Source: Faecalicoccus pleomorphus DSM 20574
Lineage (GTDB): Bacteria > Bacillota_I > Bacilli_A > Erysipelotrichales > Erysipelotrichaceae
DNA: 64,000 nt
Direction: 5' to 3'
Assembly (NCBI RefSeq): GCF_000420345.1
Contig: NZ_ATUT01000001.1
Span: 186,001-250,000, forward strand
Part shown: positions 5,768 to 15,893 of the stretch, piece after piece
Numbering within the stretch: the first letter of the stretch is position 1
Layout: each line of letters begins with the position of its first letter
Made by a program: the position numbers and the translations under genes
The notes under the pieces: model-generated
The model's input: only the letters and a program-made list of their open reading frames with translations
What the model was told of the DNA's origin: nothing
Database searches by the model: none

Positions 5768-7084
5768 ATGAAAACATTATCGATAGTATCGACAAAATTA
5801 AGTGCCTTTCTTTTACGATTGATTGGCCGTGGTGGTTCTTTACCAGGCTCAATCGGTTTAAAAATAGATTCAAATATTTTATCTAAATTATCCTTTTCCG
5901 GCCCTATCATTCTTGTCACCGGAACAAACGGAAAAACAAGTACCGCCAATATGATTGCCGATGTTTTATCAACAGCCGGATACGATGTGATTTCCAATCG
6001 AAAAGGCGATAATTTAAAAGCCGGTATCGTAACTACTTTATTGACACAGGCAACACTTACAGGAAAAGTAAAAGCCAACGCCTGTGTTCTGGAAGTTGAT
6101 GAATTAAACATTCGACATATTTTACCGGCAATACCGGTTACGGCCCTGGTTGTAAATAACTTTTTCAGAGATCAGTTAGATCGTGCCAGAGAAATGGAGC
6201 AGTTGATTCATTCCATTGAAAATGTACTGCCTGAGTATGATAAAGAATTGATTTTGAACGGAAATGATCCTAATGTACTACGTTTAGCACTTTGTGCACC
6301 AAAAGCGCATTGTACATATTTTGGAATTGACAAAAATCAATATTCTGTGGCATCCACTAAAGAGGCCAGTGAAGGAAAGTTCTGTCCAAAATGTGGCCGT
6401 AAACTGGAATATGAGTATTACCAGTATTCACATATCGGTTCTTTCCACTGTTCAAATTGTGATTTTAAAACACCATCACTGGATGTTTGTTTACAAAATA
6501 TTGATCTGGAAAAGGAAACATTTGTGTACGACAATCAAACCATACATTCACCATATGAAGGGATGTATTCCATGTATAATTGTGCTGCCGTGATTGCCCT
6601 TGCGCAGTTTTTACACATCGATATAAAACATGTCTTGTATGTCTTTCAACATGCACCGCAGCCAAAGGGAAGAAATGAGCATTTCAAGAAAGATCAAAAG
6701 GAATGTATTTTGAATTTGATCAAAAATCCAACCGGTGCCAATGAAGTCATGAAAGTTATTGATAAGGATGAAGATGATAAGGTTGTCTGTATCGTTTTAA
6801 ACGATCATGAGCAAGATGGTACGGATGTCAGTTGGATCTACGATACTTTCTTTGAAAAGGTTTGTAAGCCTTCGACAAAAAAAGTCGTTTGTACAGGAAC
6901 CAGAGCCTATGATATGGCTTTGCGCATCTATTATGAAAACTATAAGGGACCGATTGAAATTGCCGAATCAATCGAGCAAGCTATTCATTCCTCTCTTTCT
7001 GACAGTTTAAAATGTTATGCGATTGCGACATATACGGCTTTGTTGCCAACGCGAAACGCCATAGTAAAGGAGATGTCAAAATGA
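5768..7084 (+). CDS. murT: Lipid II isoglutaminyl synthase, Mur ligase subunit
   Basis: MurT pairs with GatD to amidate the D-glutamate of lipid II stem peptide to isoglutamine at the inner face of the membrane. The 438-residue protein has a Mur-ligase ATP site TGTNGKTST (51-59), a central domain with a four-cysteine zinc ribbon (Cys206, Cys209, Cys228, Cys231) inserted as in known MurT proteins, and a C-terminal DUF1727 domain. A GGGAG site lies 8 bases before the ATG. The stop overlaps the gatD start by ATGA, which supports a coupled MurT-GatD complex. Confidence 0.95.
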   Translation: MKTLSIVSTKLSAFLLRLIGRGGSLPGSIGLKIDSNILSKLSFSGPIILVTGTNGKTSTANMIADVLSTAGYDVISNRKGDNLKAGIVTTLLTQATLTGKVKANACVLEVDELNIRHILPAIPVTALVVNNFFRDQLDRAREMEQLIHSIENVLPEYDKELILNGNDPNVLRLALCAPKAHCTYFGIDKNQYSVASTKEASEGKFCPKCGRKLEYEYYQYSHIGSFHCSNCDFKTPSLDVCLQNIDLEKETFVYDNQTIHSPYEGMYSMYNCAAVIALAQFLHIDIKHVLYVFQHAPQPKGRNEHFKKDQKECILNLIKNPTGANEVMKVIDKDEDDKVVCIVLNDHEQDGTDVSWIYDTFFEKVCKPSTKKVVCTGTRAYDMALRIYYENYKGPIEIAESIEQAIHSSLSDSLKCYAIATYTALLPTRNAIVKEMSK

Positions 7085-8777: not shown

Positions 8778-8827
8778 AAGACAGGACGATTTGAATACAG
8801 TTTTCAAAATACTCCTGTCTTTTTTTA
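8778..8827. terminator. Bidirectional terminator between the lipoprotein gene and the lacI-type gene
   Basis: AAGACAGGA (8778-8786) pairs with TCCTGTCTT (8813-8821), followed by a T-run on the plus strand. The internal GAATACAGTTTTCAAAATAC segment may add loop structure. On the minus strand the hairpin follows the regulator stop codon. Confidence 0.75.
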
Positions 8828-9904
8828 CTTTCTCGGTTTTCCTGTAGTTTTACGGATGATCAGTTCCGGTTCATATTCCAGACGCAATATATAAGGATGT
8901 GACTTTTGCGTATTATTTTTTAGATGTTTTTTATAGATGATATCGACTGCTTCTTTTCCTTTTAAAAACGTTGCATGTTCGATTGTTGTCAACGAAATAT
9001 CCGGAAGAGAAGACATCAGAATATTATCAAAGCCTGCCACGGAAAAATCCTTTGGAACTTTATAGCCCTCACTTTTTAAAGCCGATAATACACCTAATGC
9101 GGTCATATCGTTATTGGCCAAAAAGGCAGTAGAATCCGTTCCTTCTTCCAAAGCTTCCATGGTAAGCTCGTAACCAACCTGATATTCGATATTTTCGGTC
9201 TGAATGCTTTCATACTGCGCTAGAGACATGGTTTTTAGCTGGATGTTTTGAACATCCTTACCTTGATCTTCAAAGGCATGAATCAATCCTTCATAACGAT
9301 GAATACGAGAAATTTCTTTACCCATGACAGGTGCAGAGATAAAAGTGATTTTCTCATGTCCCAAGTTAAGCAGATATTCACCCATTAAATGACCGGCTCT
9401 TACACCATTTAATTCCACCGAGTCAAAACGACTGCCCTGAGGTTTATCACCGATAGAGACAACCGGCATTCTTTTAAACAAAGCGTTTGCCTTAGAAATC
9501 TTGGTAGGAGGATAGAGATAGATGATGCCAGCTAAGTCTAAATTGGATAGCAGCTCATAGTAAGAGTCTTCCTGTTGTGCATTTCGCATGGTCGTAATCG
9601 TAAAGACCGAGTAATTATGCTTTTTTGCCTCGTAAACGATAGAATGAATCAAAGTCGCATAGTAGCTATTTGAAAGGTGAGGGGCAATCACTACAATCGT
9701 TTGATGAAGATCTTTCTGACTTGATTTCGACTTATGGATTTCATTTTTATAGCCTAGCTTTTTGGCAGCCTGCAATACGATATCCTGTGTTTCTTTGGAA
9801 AAGGAAACATTCTCTTTATGTGAAAGGATCATTGAAACGGTAGATTGTGACAATCCGGTATATTCGGCAATATCACGTGTTGTTATTTTTTTACGTTTTC
9901 CCAT
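8825..9904 (-). CDS. LacI-family transcriptional regulator
   Basis: A 359-residue repressor. The N-terminal helix-turn-helix (ITTRDIAEYTGLSQSTVSMIL, starting near residue 6) and hinge helix region are followed by a periplasmic-binding-like effector domain ending at LEYEPELIIRKTTG. The gene has an AAGGAG site and is divergent from the FAD oxidoreductase operon. Several TTGATTAAT palindromes lie between them, two of them overlapping this gene's own promoter, so it probably represses both itself and the operon. The effector, perhaps a sugar or polyol (derivative), is not visible from sequence. Confidence 0.88.
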   Translation of the reverse strand: MGKRKKITTRDIAEYTGLSQSTVSMILSHKENVSFSKETQDIVLQAAKKLGYKNEIHKSKSSQKDLHQTIVVIAPHLSNSYYATLIHSIVYEAKKHNYSVFTITTMRNAQQEDSYYELLSNLDLAGIIYLYPPTKISKANALFKRMPVVSIGDKPQGSRFDSVELNGVRAGHLMGEYLLNLGHEKITFISAPVMGKEISRIHRYEGLIHAFEDQGKDVQNIQLKTMSLAQYESIQTENIEYQVGYELTMEALEEGTDSTAFLANNDMTALGVLSALKSEGYKVPKDFSVAGFDNILMSSLPDISLTTIEHATFLKGKEAVDIIYKKHLKNNTQKSHPYILRLEYEPELIIRKTTGKPRK

Positions 9905-9948
9905 AATGTTCTCCTTAAAATTTTGATTTATTTTGAATAATCAATCTC

Positions 9949-9972
9949 AATTAATCAAATTGTTTTTGATTA
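9949..9972. promoter_or_regulatory. Candidate LacI-type operator O1
   Basis: TAATCAAA (9952-9959) and TTTGATTA (9965-9972) form a perfect inverted repeat with a five-base spacer. The left arm extends to AATTAATCAAA from 9949. It lies just downstream of the regulator's own -10 element, a position suited to autorepression. A further half-like copy, TTTTGATTAATT, lies at 9985-9996 inside the promoter spacer. Confidence 0.6.
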
Positions 9973-9977
9973 CTAAT

Positions 9978-10006
9978 ATTATACTTTTGATTAATTGGTT
10001 GTGCAA
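9978..10006 (-). promoter_or_regulatory. Promoter of the lacI-type regulator
   Basis: On the minus strand, TTGCAC (10006-10001) and TATAAT (9983-9978) have exactly 17 bases between them. The spacer contains AATTAATCAAAA, matching the candidate operator sequence. Confidence 0.7.
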
Positions 10007-10064
10007 GAAAAACCGTTAAAATCAGGACTTTGATCATTATAAAAAGTCAATAAATTTTTCAATG

Positions 10065-10089
10065 AATTAATCAGATATTTTGATTAATT
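10065..10089. promoter_or_regulatory. Candidate LacI-type operator O3
   Basis: AATTAATCA (10065-10073) and TGATTAATT (10081-10089) are perfect inverted repeats around a seven-base spacer. The core matches O1, so the same repressor probably binds both. It lies upstream of the oxidoreductase promoter. Confidence 0.6.
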
Positions 10090-10130
10090 AAAAATGCCTG
10101 AAAATCCTATATTTAAAGGCATTTACAAGT

Positions 10131-10159
10131 TTGACAACCTATTTTATGTGGGTTAGATT
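10131..10159 (+). promoter_or_regulatory. Promoter of the FAD oxidoreductase operon
   Basis: A consensus TTGACA (10131-10136) is 17 bases from TAGATT (10154-10159), 34 bases before the ATG. Just upstream, AAATGCCT (10092-10099) and AGGCATTT (10117-10124) form a spaced inverted repeat that may be a second regulatory site. Confidence 0.6.
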
Positions 10160-10193
10160 TACAGTGTATGAATACTATGGATGGAGGGGTACT

Positions 10194-11633
10194 ATGTACG
10201 ATGTAATCATAATTGGAGCCGGTGTCAGCGGTAGTGCAATTGCCCGTGAGTGTTCACGCTTTCCGCTAAAAATTGCGGTTCTTGAAAAGTGTGAAGACGT
10301 TTGCTGCGGAACTTCCAAGGCAAACAGTGCGATCATTCATGCCGGCTATGATGCCAAAGAAGGTACGTTGATGGCAAAATTGAATGTAGAAGGTAACTTG
10401 ATGATGGACGAACTTGCCAAAGATCTGGATATTCCATTTCAGCTAATCGGATCTTTTGTAGTTTGTACAGATAAAGAAAATCGCGACCAATTAACGACTT
10501 TGTACAATCGCGGTATTACAAATGGTGTTCCCGGTCTTCGTATTGTTGAACGCGACGAATTAAAGGAGATGGAACCAAATATATCCGATGAAGCTGTGGC
10601 AGCTTTATATGCGCCAAGCGCCGGTATTGTTTGTCCTTTTGAGTTAAATCTGGCCATGGCTGAAAATGCGGCAGAAAACGGTGTAGAGTTTTATTTTGAT
10701 TCTCCGGTGGAGGCGATACAAAAAGTAGATGATCACTATGAGATCCAAACACCAAATCAAACATTTCATTCAAAATATGTTGTGAATGCTGCCGGTGTTT
10801 ATGCCGATATGATCCATAATATGGTCAGTGCTGATAAAATGGAGATCATTCCTCGTAAAGGAGAATATTATCTGCTGGATAAAAGTGCTGGAAAACATGT
10901 TTCTCATACGATTTTTCAGTTACCGACTAAGATGGGAAAAGGGGTTCTGGTAACGCCAACTGTACACGGCAATATGTTAGTGGGCCCAACAAGTATGGAT
11001 ATCGACAATAAAGAAGGTGTCAATACGACACGAAAAGGATTGGACGAAGTTGCTATGAAATCATCCATAGCTGTTAAGAATCTTCCTATGAGAGATGTCA
11101 TCACATCCTTTGCCGGACTTCGTGCACATCATCCGAATCATGAATTCATCATTGAAGAAGTCAAGGATGCACCAAACTTTATTGATGTGGCCGGTATCGA
11201 ATCACCTGGTCTTTCTTCCTGTCCGGCTATTGGGGTAATGGTCGCAAAGATGATCAAGAAAAAAACGAATACACATGAAAAACCAGATTTCAAAAAGACA
11301 CGCAAAGGACTGATCAAGCCATCACAAATGAGTATGGAAAAAAGAAATGAACTTATCCAAAAGGATCCTCGTTATGGAACGATCATCTGTCGCTGTGAGA
11401 TGGTAACAGAAGGAGAGATCGTAGAAGCGGTACATCGAATCATTCCTGCCCGTTCACTGGATGGTATAAAACGTCGTACAAGAGCAGCTATGGGACGGTG
11501 TCAGGCTGGTTTCTGCAGCCCGCGTGTTATGGAAATCTTATCGCATGAAGTACCGGATATTGATATGTATAAAGTTAGCAAATCCGGTGGACATTCAAAC
11601 TTTATCGTAGGAAACGATAAAGAAGATCTGTAG
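10194..11633 (+). CDS. GlpA-like FAD-dependent dehydrogenase with [2Fe-2S] domain
   Basis: A 479-residue flavoprotein resembling anaerobic glycerol-3-phosphate dehydrogenase subunit A and LhgO-type DAO enzymes. The FAD site is VIIIGAGVSGSAIAREC at the N-terminus. The DAO fold continues to about residue 370 (SFAGLRAHHP is the family's late motif). The C-terminus is a BFD-like [2Fe-2S] domain with cysteines in ICRCEMV and GRCQAGFC. The start is set at 10194 by a GGAGGGG site; the longer frame begins inside the promoter. It is first in a three-gene operon with a second flavoprotein and a DUF1667 protein. The substrate may be glycerol-3-phosphate, but no glpK or glpF is nearby. Confidence 0.85.
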   Translation: MYDVIIIGAGVSGSAIARECSRFPLKIAVLEKCEDVCCGTSKANSAIIHAGYDAKEGTLMAKLNVEGNLMMDELAKDLDIPFQLIGSFVVCTDKENRDQLTTLYNRGITNGVPGLRIVERDELKEMEPNISDEAVAALYAPSAGIVCPFELNLAMAENAAENGVEFYFDSPVEAIQKVDDHYEIQTPNQTFHSKYVVNAAGVYADMIHNMVSADKMEIIPRKGEYYLLDKSAGKHVSHTIFQLPTKMGKGVLVTPTVHGNMLVGPTSMDIDNKEGVNTTRKGLDEVAMKSSIAVKNLPMRDVITSFAGLRAHHPNHEFIIEEVKDAPNFIDVAGIESPGLSSCPAIGVMVAKMIKKKTNTHEKPDFKKTRKGLIKPSQMSMEKRNELIQKDPRYGTIICRCEMVTEGEIVEAVHRIIPARSLDGIKRRTRAAMGRCQAGFCSPRVMEILSHEVPDIDMYKVSKSGGHSNFIVGNDKEDL

Positions 11634-11644
11634 GAGGCAAGACT

Positions 11645-12901
11645 ATGAAAAAGGTAAATGTAGTAATTATCGGTGGTGGACCGGCAGGTCTTGCGGCCGC
11701 ACTCAGTGCTAAAGAAGCAGGCGAAAGTGATATCTTAATTTTGGAACGTGATACAAAATTAGGTGGTATCTTAAATCAATGTATTCATAACGGTTTTGGA
11801 CTGCACACATTTAAAGAAGAATTGACTGGGCCGGAATATGCGAATCGTTTTATTGAGAAAGTAAAAGAACAAAATATTCCTTATAAGCTGAATACAATGG
11901 TCATGGATATTTCTTCCGATAAAGTAGTTACTGCCATGAACGCAAAAGAAGGTTTATTCCAAATTCAGGCAAAGGCAATCATCTTGGCCATGGGCTGTCG
12001 AGAACGACCTAGAGGGGCTTTAAATATTCCAGGTTATCGTCCAGCTGGTATATACAGTGCCGGAACAGCACAGAAATTAGTCAATATCGATGGATTGATG
12101 CCAGGAAAAGAAGTTGTCATCTTAGGTTCCGGTGATATCGGTTTGATCATGGCACGAAGAATGACTTTAGAAGGGGCTAAAGTAAAAGTCGTCGCCGAAT
12201 TGATGCCATATTCCGGTGGTTTAAAAAGAAATATCGTACAATGTCTGGATGACTTTGGAATTCCGTTAAAACTAAGTCATACCGTAGTCGATATCGAAGG
12301 TAAAGAGCGTGTCGAAGCTGTCACGATTGCAGAGGTCAAAGATGGAAAACCAGTACCGGGAACCGAAGAAAGATATACTTGTGATACTTTATTATTATCA
12401 TGTGGTCTTATTCCGGAAAACGAGCTTTCCAATCAGGCCGGCATTGAAATTAGTCCGATCACAAAAGGACCAAAGGTCAATGAATCGTTAGAAACAAACG
12501 TTGACGGCATCTTTGCCTGCGGCAATGTATTGCATGTACATGACCTGGTTGATTTTGTATCTCAGGAAGCAAAACAGGCTGGAAAAAATGCCGTAAAATA
12601 TCTGAAAGAGCAGGAAATCAAAAACACAAAAGTCATTCCTATTCAGACTGAAAACGGCGTACGTTACAGTGTACCTTTTGTGGTAAGACCTGAAGATATG
12701 GATGACTTGCTGACGGTACGTTTCCGTGTAGGTGGCGTTTATAAAGATCATTTTATCAGTGTCTATCTGGATGATCAAAGAATTCTTCATAAACCCAGCA
12801 AAATCTTGGCTCCAGGAGAAATGGAACAGATCATTCTGACTAAGAAAAAAATGATGGAAATCGATCCATCTACGATTCGCATTACTCTGGAGGATAAATA
12901 A
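11645..12901 (+). CDS. FAD/NAD(P)-binding oxidoreductase partner
   Basis: A 418-residue pyridine nucleotide-disulfide oxidoreductase-type flavoprotein. The first dinucleotide site is VVIIGGGPAGLAAALSA; the second, for NAD(P)H, is VVILGSGDIGLIMARR near 160. The segment VDGIFACGNVLHVHDLVDFVS is the late FAD-binding motif of this fold. No redox CxxC pair of the thioredoxin reductase kind is evident in the central domain. In many Firmicutes this protein is paired with a GlpA/GlpO-like subunit and a DUF1667 protein, probably passing electrons between the substrate flavoprotein and NAD. GGAGG precedes the start, 11 bases after the previous stop. Confidence 0.85.
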   Translation: MKKVNVVIIGGGPAGLAAALSAKEAGESDILILERDTKLGGILNQCIHNGFGLHTFKEELTGPEYANRFIEKVKEQNIPYKLNTMVMDISSDKVVTAMNAKEGLFQIQAKAIILAMGCRERPRGALNIPGYRPAGIYSAGTAQKLVNIDGLMPGKEVVILGSGDIGLIMARRMTLEGAKVKVVAELMPYSGGLKRNIVQCLDDFGIPLKLSHTVVDIEGKERVEAVTIAEVKDGKPVPGTEERYTCDTLLLSCGLIPENELSNQAGIEISPITKGPKVNESLETNVDGIFACGNVLHVHDLVDFVSQEAKQAGKNAVKYLKEQEIKNTKVIPIQTENGVRYSVPFVVRPEDMDDLLTVRFRVGGVYKDHFISVYLDDQRILHKPSKILAPGEMEQIILTKKKMMEIDPSTIRITLEDK

Positions 12902-12902
12902 T

Positions 12903-13265
12903 ATGGAAACAAGAGAATTAACATGTATTGGCTGTCCGATGGGATGTGCTCTAACGGTAAAAATGGAAGAGGGAAATGTGATTTCTGTTTCCGGTAATAC
13001 TTGTCAACAAGGCGATATTTACGCTCATAAAGAAGTAACTAATCCAACCAGAATCGTAACTAGCATTGTTCCGGTAACTGGTTCAAAGGATGAGATCATG
13101 ATTTCTGTTAAGACAGCACATGATATTCCAAAGAATAAAATCTTTGCCTGTATGAAAGATCTAAAAGCTGTTAAAGTACAAGCTCCTGTACACATTGGAG
13201 ATGTAGTCTTAAAAAATGTAGCGGATACAGGAGTCGATGTGATTGCGACAAAGGAGGCATTATAG
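12903..13265 (+). CDS. DUF1667 cysteine-rich small subunit
   Basis: A 120-residue DUF1667 protein. The N-terminal CIGCPMGC motif (first Cys near residue 9) and a further Cys near 34 (GNTCQQGD) resemble the cluster-binding head of molybdopterin oxidoreductases, without the rest of that enzyme. The family nearly always follows a GlpA-like and a NAD-binding flavoprotein, as here, so it is likely an Fe-S electron-transfer subunit of the complex. The start lies one base after the previous stop with a GGAGG site inside the upstream gene. Confidence 0.85.
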   Translation: METRELTCIGCPMGCALTVKMEEGNVISVSGNTCQQGDIYAHKEVTNPTRIVTSIVPVTGSKDEIMISVKTAHDIPKNKIFACMKDLKAVKVQAPVHIGDVVLKNVADTGVDVIATKEAL

Positions 13266-13275
13266 GAGTATTTCT

Positions 13276-13555
13276 ATGACAGAATTTGAACAGCAAACAT
13301 TAAACATCAGAAAAAAATCCTAAAGCCAGTGTATTAGGCACAAAGTGATTCTTATCCGCTGCCAACATTTTGACATATCTTGGACTTGGATCAGTGGTTG
13401 CTGAAGTCCTGGCAACAACAAAAATAGGTTATCCAGTATTAATGATCGGATTACATGATGAATTTGATCAAAAATGGCAGGCCGAAGACTTAATGAAGCG
13501 CTATTATTTAGATACTAGTAGTATTGCTTAAGCTATTCATGAATTTTTAAAATAA
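13276..13555 (+). pseudogene. Transketolase remnant: N-terminal subunit start joined to C-terminal subunit end
   Basis: A good GGAG site and ATG open a frame, MTEFEQQTLNIRKKS, that stops at 13321. Adding one base to the A7 run at 13311-13317 continues it as IRKKILKPVY then a stop (TAG) and AQS, the opening helix of split transketolase N-subunits. After losing the GHPGG segment, a third frame reads LSAANILTYL, also from the N-subunit. This runs straight into GLGSVVAEVLA, the start of the last domain of the C-subunit, and on through PVLMIGLHDEF and EDLMKRYYLDTSSIA. A TAA at 13529 then replaces a probable Glu codon before AIHEFLK and the true stop. Roughly 1.5 kb of the normal gene pair must be deleted. 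Confidence 0.75.
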
Positions 13556-13558
13556 ATC

Positions 13559-13583
13559 AAAAGCGGTCAATGATCGCTTTTTT
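13559..13583 (+). terminator. Terminator after the transketolase remnant
   Basis: AAAAGCGGTCA faces TGATCGCTTTT with one G-U pair and a very small loop, then a T-run. It probably once ended the oxidoreductase-transketolase transcript and still can. Confidence 0.75.
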
Positions 13584-14227
13584 GCATAAATTCCCTATTT
13601 TTTATATTAGTATAGTCCACTTAACTATTATAGGATTGTTTTAGATATTAAACCGGCAAAGGTATTTTTATTTATAGATATTTCATTTTTCTTTCTATAT
13701 TTTCGCTCAAATATTTTGATGATCATGATTTCATCATAACTTTAAATGAATATGTTCACATGTGCATATCAAACTCGATTAAATAGACTCTATGAGAGTA
13801 CGTGAAAAAGAAAAACATGGGTAATCATACGTTCGATACATTTTACAGAATCAAATAAGGAATGTATATTTTGATTATCATAATTATATATAAGAAAATA
13901 GACTAAATAAAATAATGATGAATTTTGTTAGATAAAACAATATAAAAATCTGCATTATGTAAATTTTTTAAGACCGCAAGATGAAAAACCGTGTTCAAAA
14001 ATTAAATATGTTTTGATAAAACACGATTATACATTTTTTACATAATATACATTATGCGAAGTAAAATTTATTGGCGTACCGATAGTACATTAGCCGATCG
14101 ATAGAAATTTGCAGGAAAATGTAGATAAACGTATAGATTCTTATTTAAATTGAAGGTGCACCTTTAAATTTATTATGCACTGTCCATATCAGATTTATAC
14201 ATAGTACGTCATAAAAATGAGATAAAC
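13584..14227. other. AT-rich stretch without a recognisable gene
   Basis: About 640 bases very rich in A and T, with stops in all six frames and no RNA gene, riboswitch or repeat that I can identify. It contains a perfect 12-base palindrome, AAGGTGCACCTT, at 14153-14164 with imperfectly symmetrical AT flanks. It lies between a decayed transketolase and the terminator of the hxl operon, so it may be further eroded coding DNA. I could not match any translated piece to a family. Confidence 0.6.
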
Positions 14228-14250
14228 AAAAAGCCCAGTGAGGGCTTTTT
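14228..14250. terminator. Bidirectional terminator of the hxlA-hxlB-cupin operon
   Basis: AAAAAGCCC (14228-14236) and GGGCTTTTT (14242-14250) form a perfect stem with a five-base loop and T-runs in both directions. The cupin gene ends six bases away on the minus strand. Confidence 0.85.
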
Positions 14251-14255
14251 ATAAG

Positions 14256-14609
14256 TTATCGATTGTAATCATCTTCGATTCGTACTACATCATCTAAATG
14301 AGGGGTACTGACTTCGATAATCGTTGTATCTTCTAAAGCGGTATTTCGATGTCGAAAGGTCGGAGGATTGCTGATGATATCACCGGGTCCATATATATGG
14401 GTATGTAGTTCTTTATGTTCATCATCTTCCAGGACCTCCAACTTCCCTTTCAAAATGTAAATGTGTTCTTCTTTTTGATTATGGTATTGAAAGGAACAGC
14501 GCTCACCTTTCTTAAAGAAAATCTCCTTTAAGGCATAGTGATCTGTTACTGCAAGCCACTTTTCGTAACCCCATGGCTTTTCGACATATTTGACTAATTT
14601 TTGTTTCAT
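14256..14609 (-). CDS. Small cupin protein, mannose-6-phosphate isomerase-like
   Basis: A 117-residue single-domain cupin. Motif 1 includes CSFQYHNQKEEHIYILKGKLEV and motif 2 is PGDIISNPPTFRHR, so metal ligands (His, His/Glu, His) are present. The N-terminal KPWGYEKW is shared with the sugar-phosphate cupins fused to mannose-1-phosphate guanylyltransferase. The third place in the hxlA-hxlB operon suggests a sugar-phosphate isomerase or sensor role; this is inference only. It starts ten bases after hxlB. Confidence 0.75.
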   Translation of the reverse strand: MKQKLVKYVEKPWGYEKWLAVTDHYALKEIFFKKGERCSFQYHNQKEEHIYILKGKLEVLEDDEHKELHTHIYGPGDIISNPPTFRHRNTALEDTTIIEVSTPHLDDVVRIEDDYNR

Positions 14610-14618
14610 AATAACGAA

Positions 14619-15179
14619 CTACTCCATATTGGCATGTCTTCCAAACATCGTATCGGAATCCATATGATTCTTTTCCATCAACATCATGATCGCAATATCC
14701 ATAAACAAACCTTCGGATTGTTCAAATAAAGATCCCATAGGCTGTATGGATTTAATTTGTCCTTCTTTAGCACTTTTCGGACTCGGTGCACTGATTTCAA
14801 TAACAACATCAGCCATCTTTCCTATCGTCGATTCAGGATTGATCGTGATCAAAGCAAGCTTAGCGCCTACTTCTTTGGCCTTTTGCGCATGATTAACCAG
14901 GCTTTTTGTTTCACCGGAGCCAGAACAAATCACTAAGATTCCATCCTCTTTGATATTTGGTGTGCATGTTTCTCCTACAACATAAGATTTCTTTCCCATA
15001 TGCATCAAACGCATCGCGAAGCCTTTGACTTGAAATCCGCTTCGTCCTGCACCGGCGCAAAAGATTTCGTTAGCCTGATCCACAAGCTCAACAAACTGTT
15101 CTGCATTTTTGGTATCTATGCTTAATAATGTATGTTCCAGTTCATTTAATACTGTTTTTGCATATTCGATCGTATTCAT
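14619..15179 (-). CDS. hxlB: 6-phospho-3-hexuloisomerase
   Basis: A 186-residue SIS-domain isomerase that converts D-arabino-3-hexulose-6-phosphate to fructose-6-phosphate. Typical features are FCAGAGRSGFQVKGFAMRLMHMG, the glycine-rich phosphate loop ICSGSGETKSL, and PMGSLFEQ with a C-terminal helix used in tetramerisation. Length and motifs fit bacterial and archaeal HxlB/PHI rather than KpsF- or GutQ-type SIS proteins. Its ATG overlaps the hxlA stop by four bases, so the two are translationally coupled. Confidence 0.88.
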   Translation of the reverse strand: MNTIEYAKTVLNELEHTLLSIDTKNAEQFVELVDQANEIFCAGAGRSGFQVKGFAMRLMHMGKKSYVVGETCTPNIKEDGILVICSGSGETKSLVNHAQKAKEVGAKLALITINPESTIGKMADVVIEISAPSPKSAKEGQIKSIQPMGSLFEQSEGLFMDIAIMMLMEKNHMDSDTMFGRHANME

Positions 15180-15805
15180 GATTTTAAATATCCTTTCATC
15201 TCTTTTGCCATTTTTGCTCGGTTTTTGGCATTGCAGATGGCACCGCCAACCACAATGATCTCAGCACCTTCATTGACGATATCCTGAATCGTTTCCAGCT
15301 TTACACCCCCGGCAACCGCACTTTTCGCATGATTAATGACTTTATTGACTATCTTTAATTCTTCTAACGGATCTTGACCGGATTGTTGCACATCAAAGGC
15401 CGTATGAACACAAATATAATCGACACCCATTTCATCGATTTCTTTGGTTCTTGTGGCTAAATCATGAACATTGATCATATCGACCATGACTTTTCCGTTG
15501 TGATTTTTAGCAGATCGTACAACTCCCTGAATCGTTTCATCATGACTGACACCCAAAACAGTTACAATAGAAGCACCGGCTTCAAAGCATTTATCGGCTT
15601 CAAATTCACCGGCATCCATGATTTTCGCATCGGCCAGAACTTCAACCTTCGGAAATCTTTTATGAATCTCTTTGACAGGCACCATTCCTTCTTCAATGAT
15701 AAATGGAGTACCCACCTCAGCAATCTCTACACTTCCCTTTGTTTGTTCTAAAAGTTGAATACATTCCTCCAGGCTTAATGTATCCAAAGCAACCTGTAAT
15801 TTCAT
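15176..15805 (-). CDS. hxlA: 3-hexulose-6-phosphate synthase
   Basis: A TIM-barrel enzyme of the OMP decarboxylase superfamily, 209 residues, that condenses formaldehyde with ribulose-5-phosphate or runs in reverse. The metal and phosphate segments are EVGTPF, the DAKIMD signature with EFEADKCFEAGA, VDMINVHDL and AVAGGVKLETI. The related 3-keto-L-gulonate-6-phosphate decarboxylase shares the fold, but partnership with hxlB and the TVLGVSHDETIQ segment favour the synthase. AAGGAG nine bases upstream sets the start at 15805, not the further ATGs at 15838-15814. Confidence 0.85.
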   Translation of the reverse strand: MKLQVALDTLSLEECIQLLEQTKGSVEIAEVGTPFIIEEGMVPVKEIHKRFPKVEVLADAKIMDAGEFEADKCFEAGASIVTVLGVSHDETIQGVVRSAKNHNGKVMVDMINVHDLATRTKEIDEMGVDYICVHTAFDVQQSGQDPLEELKIVNKVINHAKSAVAGGVKLETIQDIVNEGAEIIVVGGAICNAKNRAKMAKEMKGYLKS

Positions 15806-15893
15806 CCTCATCATCTCCTTGTGTAAAGCGTACATCATTCATCTCCTTCTCTCAACAAAAAGATTGGTTTTAATCAAAATAAAGGGTAAAAAA

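Follow-up and report, generated by a model that had tools for sequence, protein, structure and literature searches.

A short relic of an adjacent tktN-tktC transketolase pair at the end of a putative catabolic operon in Faecalicoccus pleomorphus

Results

Organization of the locus

The window analyzed here spans 64,000 nucleotides of Faecalicoccus pleomorphus DSM 20574 (G000; contig NZ_ATUT01000001.1, positions 186,001 to 250,000), and all coordinates refer to it unless a contig is named (Table 1). A gene for a LacI-type regulator and three intact genes, the last of which codes for a DUF1667 protein, precede a stretch of 280 bp (13276-13555) that on translation reads in three frames. The frame of the start codon gives MTEFEQQTLNIRK, the next frame KILKPVY*AQS and the third LSAANILTYL-GLGSVVAEVLA...SSIA*AIHEFLK, which reproduces the reading of the initial annotation, where the stretch was taken for a collapsed pair of split transketolase genes. 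Just past it, a hairpin followed by a T run is probably the old terminator of the operon; it is not listed by the consensus terminator scan.

Table 1. Features of the relic and of its neighborhood in the window
Feature	Position	Strand	Evidence
LacI-type regulator	8825-9904	-	homologous in G003
FAD-dependent oxidoreductase, GlpA/GlpO-like (DAO + BFD [2Fe-2S]), intact	10131-11633	+	Pfam DAO 1e-68, Fer2_BFD 1e-13; 90% identical to G003
NAD(P)/FAD pyridine nucleotide-disulphide oxidoreductase, intact	11645-12901	+	Pfam Pyr_redox_2 6e-35; 96% identical to G003
DUF1667 protein, intact, last functional gene before the relic	12903-13265	+	PF07892 1e-32; 90% identical to G003
tktN relic, first 13 codons, original frame and start codon	13276-13314	+	MTEFEQQTLNIRK vs MTELQKHAINIRK
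tktN relic past the one-base loss, frame +3, TAG vs TGG in G003	13311-13345	+	KILKPVY*AQS vs NILKMVYIAQS / NILNQVYWAQS
tktN relic past the 13-base loss at GHPGG, frame +2, LSAANILTYL	13346-13381	+	alignment with tktN of G003, G001 and G002
tktC relic, last 57 codons and stop, in frame with the tktN remnant	13382-13555	+	tblastn, alignment
Hairpin and T run just past the relic	13559-13583	+	10-bp stem, -10.6 kcal/mol, z -2.97

Both ends of the relic are homologous in sequence to split transketolase genes, the left one to tktN and the right one to tktC. The tktC part (13382-13552) shares 42% identity over 57 residues with a tktC of the same genome on contig C19 (tblastn, E 6e-8), and the DNA at 13275-13345 is 75-78% identical over 71-72 nt to the tktN starts of G001 and G002 (E 3e-8 to 6e-5; 1.9e-8 for the N-part DNA in the whole-genome search), with the start codon aligned to theirs. 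The relic is therefore present beyond chance at the place initially annotated, its transketolase matches being obtained by tblastn for the C part and at the DNA level for the N part. The protein pieces of the tktN part (E 0.006 and 0.012) are too short for significance alone, and Pfam identifies no domain in the 57-residue C remnant.

The region that follows the relic (13556-14256) is AT-rich, has no evident genes and contains a break in synteny, the left side of which matches G003 and the right side G001 and G002. Further on (14256-15838), genes resembling those for a cupin, a SIS-domain protein (3-hexulose-6-phosphate isomerase-like) and a hexulose-6-phosphate synthase lie by a DeoR regulator. 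A homologous synthase-like gene is located near gpsA in G001 and G002, and none was found in G003. In G014, a homologue of hexulose-6-phosphate synthase (L215, C1:361531-362178) carries two in-frame TGA codons.

The deletion and the smaller lesions

Comparison with both complete tkt pairs of G002, the subunits of which comprise 269 and 310 residues, in line with the sizes of about 270 and 310 initially given for adjacent split subunits, shows that the relic lacks about 1,441 bp between its surviving ends. With the G002 pair on C16 as reference for the breakpoints, the left end covers codons 1-40 of tktN and the right end codons 254-310 of tktC; neither the open frame of about 270 codons nor that of about 310 is preserved (three frames, an internal TAG and an internal TAA). 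Most of tktC is gone, along with the thiamine-diphosphate segment of tktN; both the thiamine diphosphate motif (GDG...N) and the GHPGG segment are missing from the aligned relic, as the initial annotation had proposed in postulating one large deletion plus small decay that removed the cofactor site. Inspection of the junction revealed no clear repeat.

Several smaller lesions accompany the deletion. Relative to the AGAAAAAATATCC-type sequence, the relic lacks one base between AGAAAAAA and ATCC. The frameshift initially assigned to an A7 run is thus real, but according to the alignment the run is the product of the one-base loss and not its site. The loss described around GHPGG is confirmed and amounts to 13 nt by alignment to related tktN genes, and the in-frame TAG, likewise described initially, occupies the site of a TGG in G003. 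The late stop, a TAA at 13529-13531, had been attributed to a change from Glu, which is incorrect: the corresponding codon is CAA (Gln) in the G003 and G000 copies and AAA (Lys) in G001 and G002. None of the lesions has a counterpart in any related copy compared.

The changes private to the relic affect 12/55, 11/70 and 10/21 sites at the first, second and third codon positions, respectively, against 20/80, 9/83 and 25/51 in the active G000 copies. Per site, the relic thus favors third positions as active copies do, a comparison that involves few bases and has little power. Taken at face value, these counts suggest that most of the divergence of the relic had probably accumulated before the gene died, and the bias would reflect either a recent death or some remaining constraint. 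The latter would be expected if the remnant still made a small product, for instance from a 53-codon frame (LTYLGLGSVV...) that starts with TTG, crosses the deletion junction in frame and would yield part of the transketolase C domain. This frame, however, lacks both an ATG and a visible ribosome-binding site, ends at the premature TAA at 13531, reads FDQKWQA where related copies share an FGxSGKP segment and contains no Pfam domain, so that we regard a surviving product as very improbable.

Other transketolase copies in the genus

The genome contains a complete tkt pair on C17, more distant in sequence, with open frames of 288 and 329 codons. Two further copies, interrupted by nothing but contig ends, account for the tktN ends on C18 (past prfB) and C14 and for the tktC ends on C19 (before cysK) and C28. 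The search for intact tkt genes elsewhere in the genome, which the initial annotation had called for, thus finds the C17 pair. A second damaged transketolase gene lies within a contig (C12, about 6064-6558; L044) and consists of a tktC without its 5' half; it differs from the tktC end on C28 at 2/120 bases.

Copies of tkt do break assemblies in this genus, as several G000, G001 and G003 contigs end inside tktN or tktC, and a collapse or chimera of repeated copies could in principle have created a false junction, the very event initially named as grounds for rejecting the relic. The remnant DNA, however, is just 55-63% identical to the other compared copies of the genome (the N part was aligned with C18 and C14, the C part with C12), so that their reads could not have built it. 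It is also located far from the ends of a 320-kb contig and shows several small lesions independent of one another, and we consider an assembly artefact extremely unlikely.

Two tkt loci are common to G001 and G002, judged by their flanks. The two G002 pairs differ at 26/1,732 positions, 11 of which fall in the last 19 bases, and the visible G001 ends show few differences until the last ~25 bases; between both genomes, the 3' tails match by locus and the bodies by species. At the 5' end, the first 72 bases of tktN on C14 and C18 of G000 (L043 and L041) show 25 differences, and the next 490 bases show 8. Overall, near-identity within a genome, except in the few dozen bases at one end or the other, is observed for the copies on C14 and C18 of G000, C2, C44, C8 and C86 of G001, C16 and C2 of G002 (L207 and L208) and C21, C45, C52 and C55 of G003. 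Gene conversion between loci would produce such a pattern; its extent may be inflated where short-read assemblies have collapsed.

The same block in related genomes

The LacI/DAO/Pyr_redox/DUF1667 block is shared with G003, of the same genus, at 88-96% protein identity. At the DNA level the match (82% over 9003-13316) runs unbroken from the upstream operon into the relic, with 79% identity for DUF1667 and the relic start. In G003, DUF1667 and a short gap are followed by an undisturbed tktN start at the exact position and spacing of the relic. The comparison with a relative thus provides the intact start, but the G003 contig ends 58 codons into tktN, and the complete tktN-tktC pair at that locus is our inference. 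To the right, G003 has two tktC ends followed by cysK or ABC transporters, and not the genes of the window.

Upstream of its block, G003 encodes proteins that resemble PTS components, alcohol dehydrogenases, an FGGY kinase, a class II aldolase, a glycerol-1-phosphate dehydrogenase and a HAD phosphatase. Similarity with the window stops at about 9003, and G000 offers no close counterpart of the glycerol-1-phosphate-dehydrogenase-like gene (best match at 22% identity, E 4.5e-5). Judging from these sequences, the upstream half of the operon appears to have been lost in this genome as well.

When 273 family genomes were searched with the DNA spanning DUF1667 and the relic, the relic was found in no other genome, and only G003 matched across the DUF1667/tktN boundary. 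Among 80 named loci retrieved by Pyr_redox protein similarity, mostly from Lachnospiraceae and relatives, none has tkt beside DUF1667 within the stretch covered, some of these stretches ending soon past DUF1667. A literature search returned no relevant paper.

Discussion

On the evidence presented here, an adjacent tktN-tktC pair very likely once closed, at its 3' end, a catabolic operon located by a LacI-type regulator, and the relic is very likely the dead remainder of this pair. A large deletion and small lesions would have reduced the pair to a short remnant, presumably without a product of its own. The presence of other tkt copies suggests that loss of the window pair need not cost transketolase activity; the pair may have become dispensable once the operon had lost its upstream half, with the other transketolases serving the cell. 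Since that upstream half seems to be missing too, the relic resembles the last piece of an operon that has been dismantled in part, in keeping with the decay of a dispensable catabolic function.

By itself the relic matters little: it marks a decaying sugar-catabolism operon and accounts for a stretch to which annotation tools would give either no name or a wrong one. We suggest more tentatively that the tkt copies of the genus might be kept near-identical by gene conversion, and that the window copy might have left this exchange once the deletion removed the shared body. If so, homogenized copies with diverged ends would illustrate, on a small scale and in nature, how metabolic genes of bacteria evolve in concert, and homogenization would explain the assembly breaks at tkt.

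The arrangement recurs in G009 (L220), where PTS, dehydrogenase, aldolase, HAD, DAO, Pyr_redox and DUF1667 genes are followed by open tktN (282 aa) and tktC (314 aa) genes 3' of DUF1667; the DUF1667 protein, however, is only 46% identical to that of the window, and the upstream sugar genes are different. With respect to split transketolases in general (tktN/tktC; Pfam PF00456, PF02779/PF02780), the relic matches intact adjacent pairs in gene order, start, end and spacing, but it misses about 84% of their length, its frame is broken twice and stops occur in both halves. It is an ordinary deletion pseudogene which, like other bacterial deletion pseudogenes in operons, combines an internal deletion, small indels and stops with intact neighbors, and which differs from them only in being unusually short and in keeping both gene ends.
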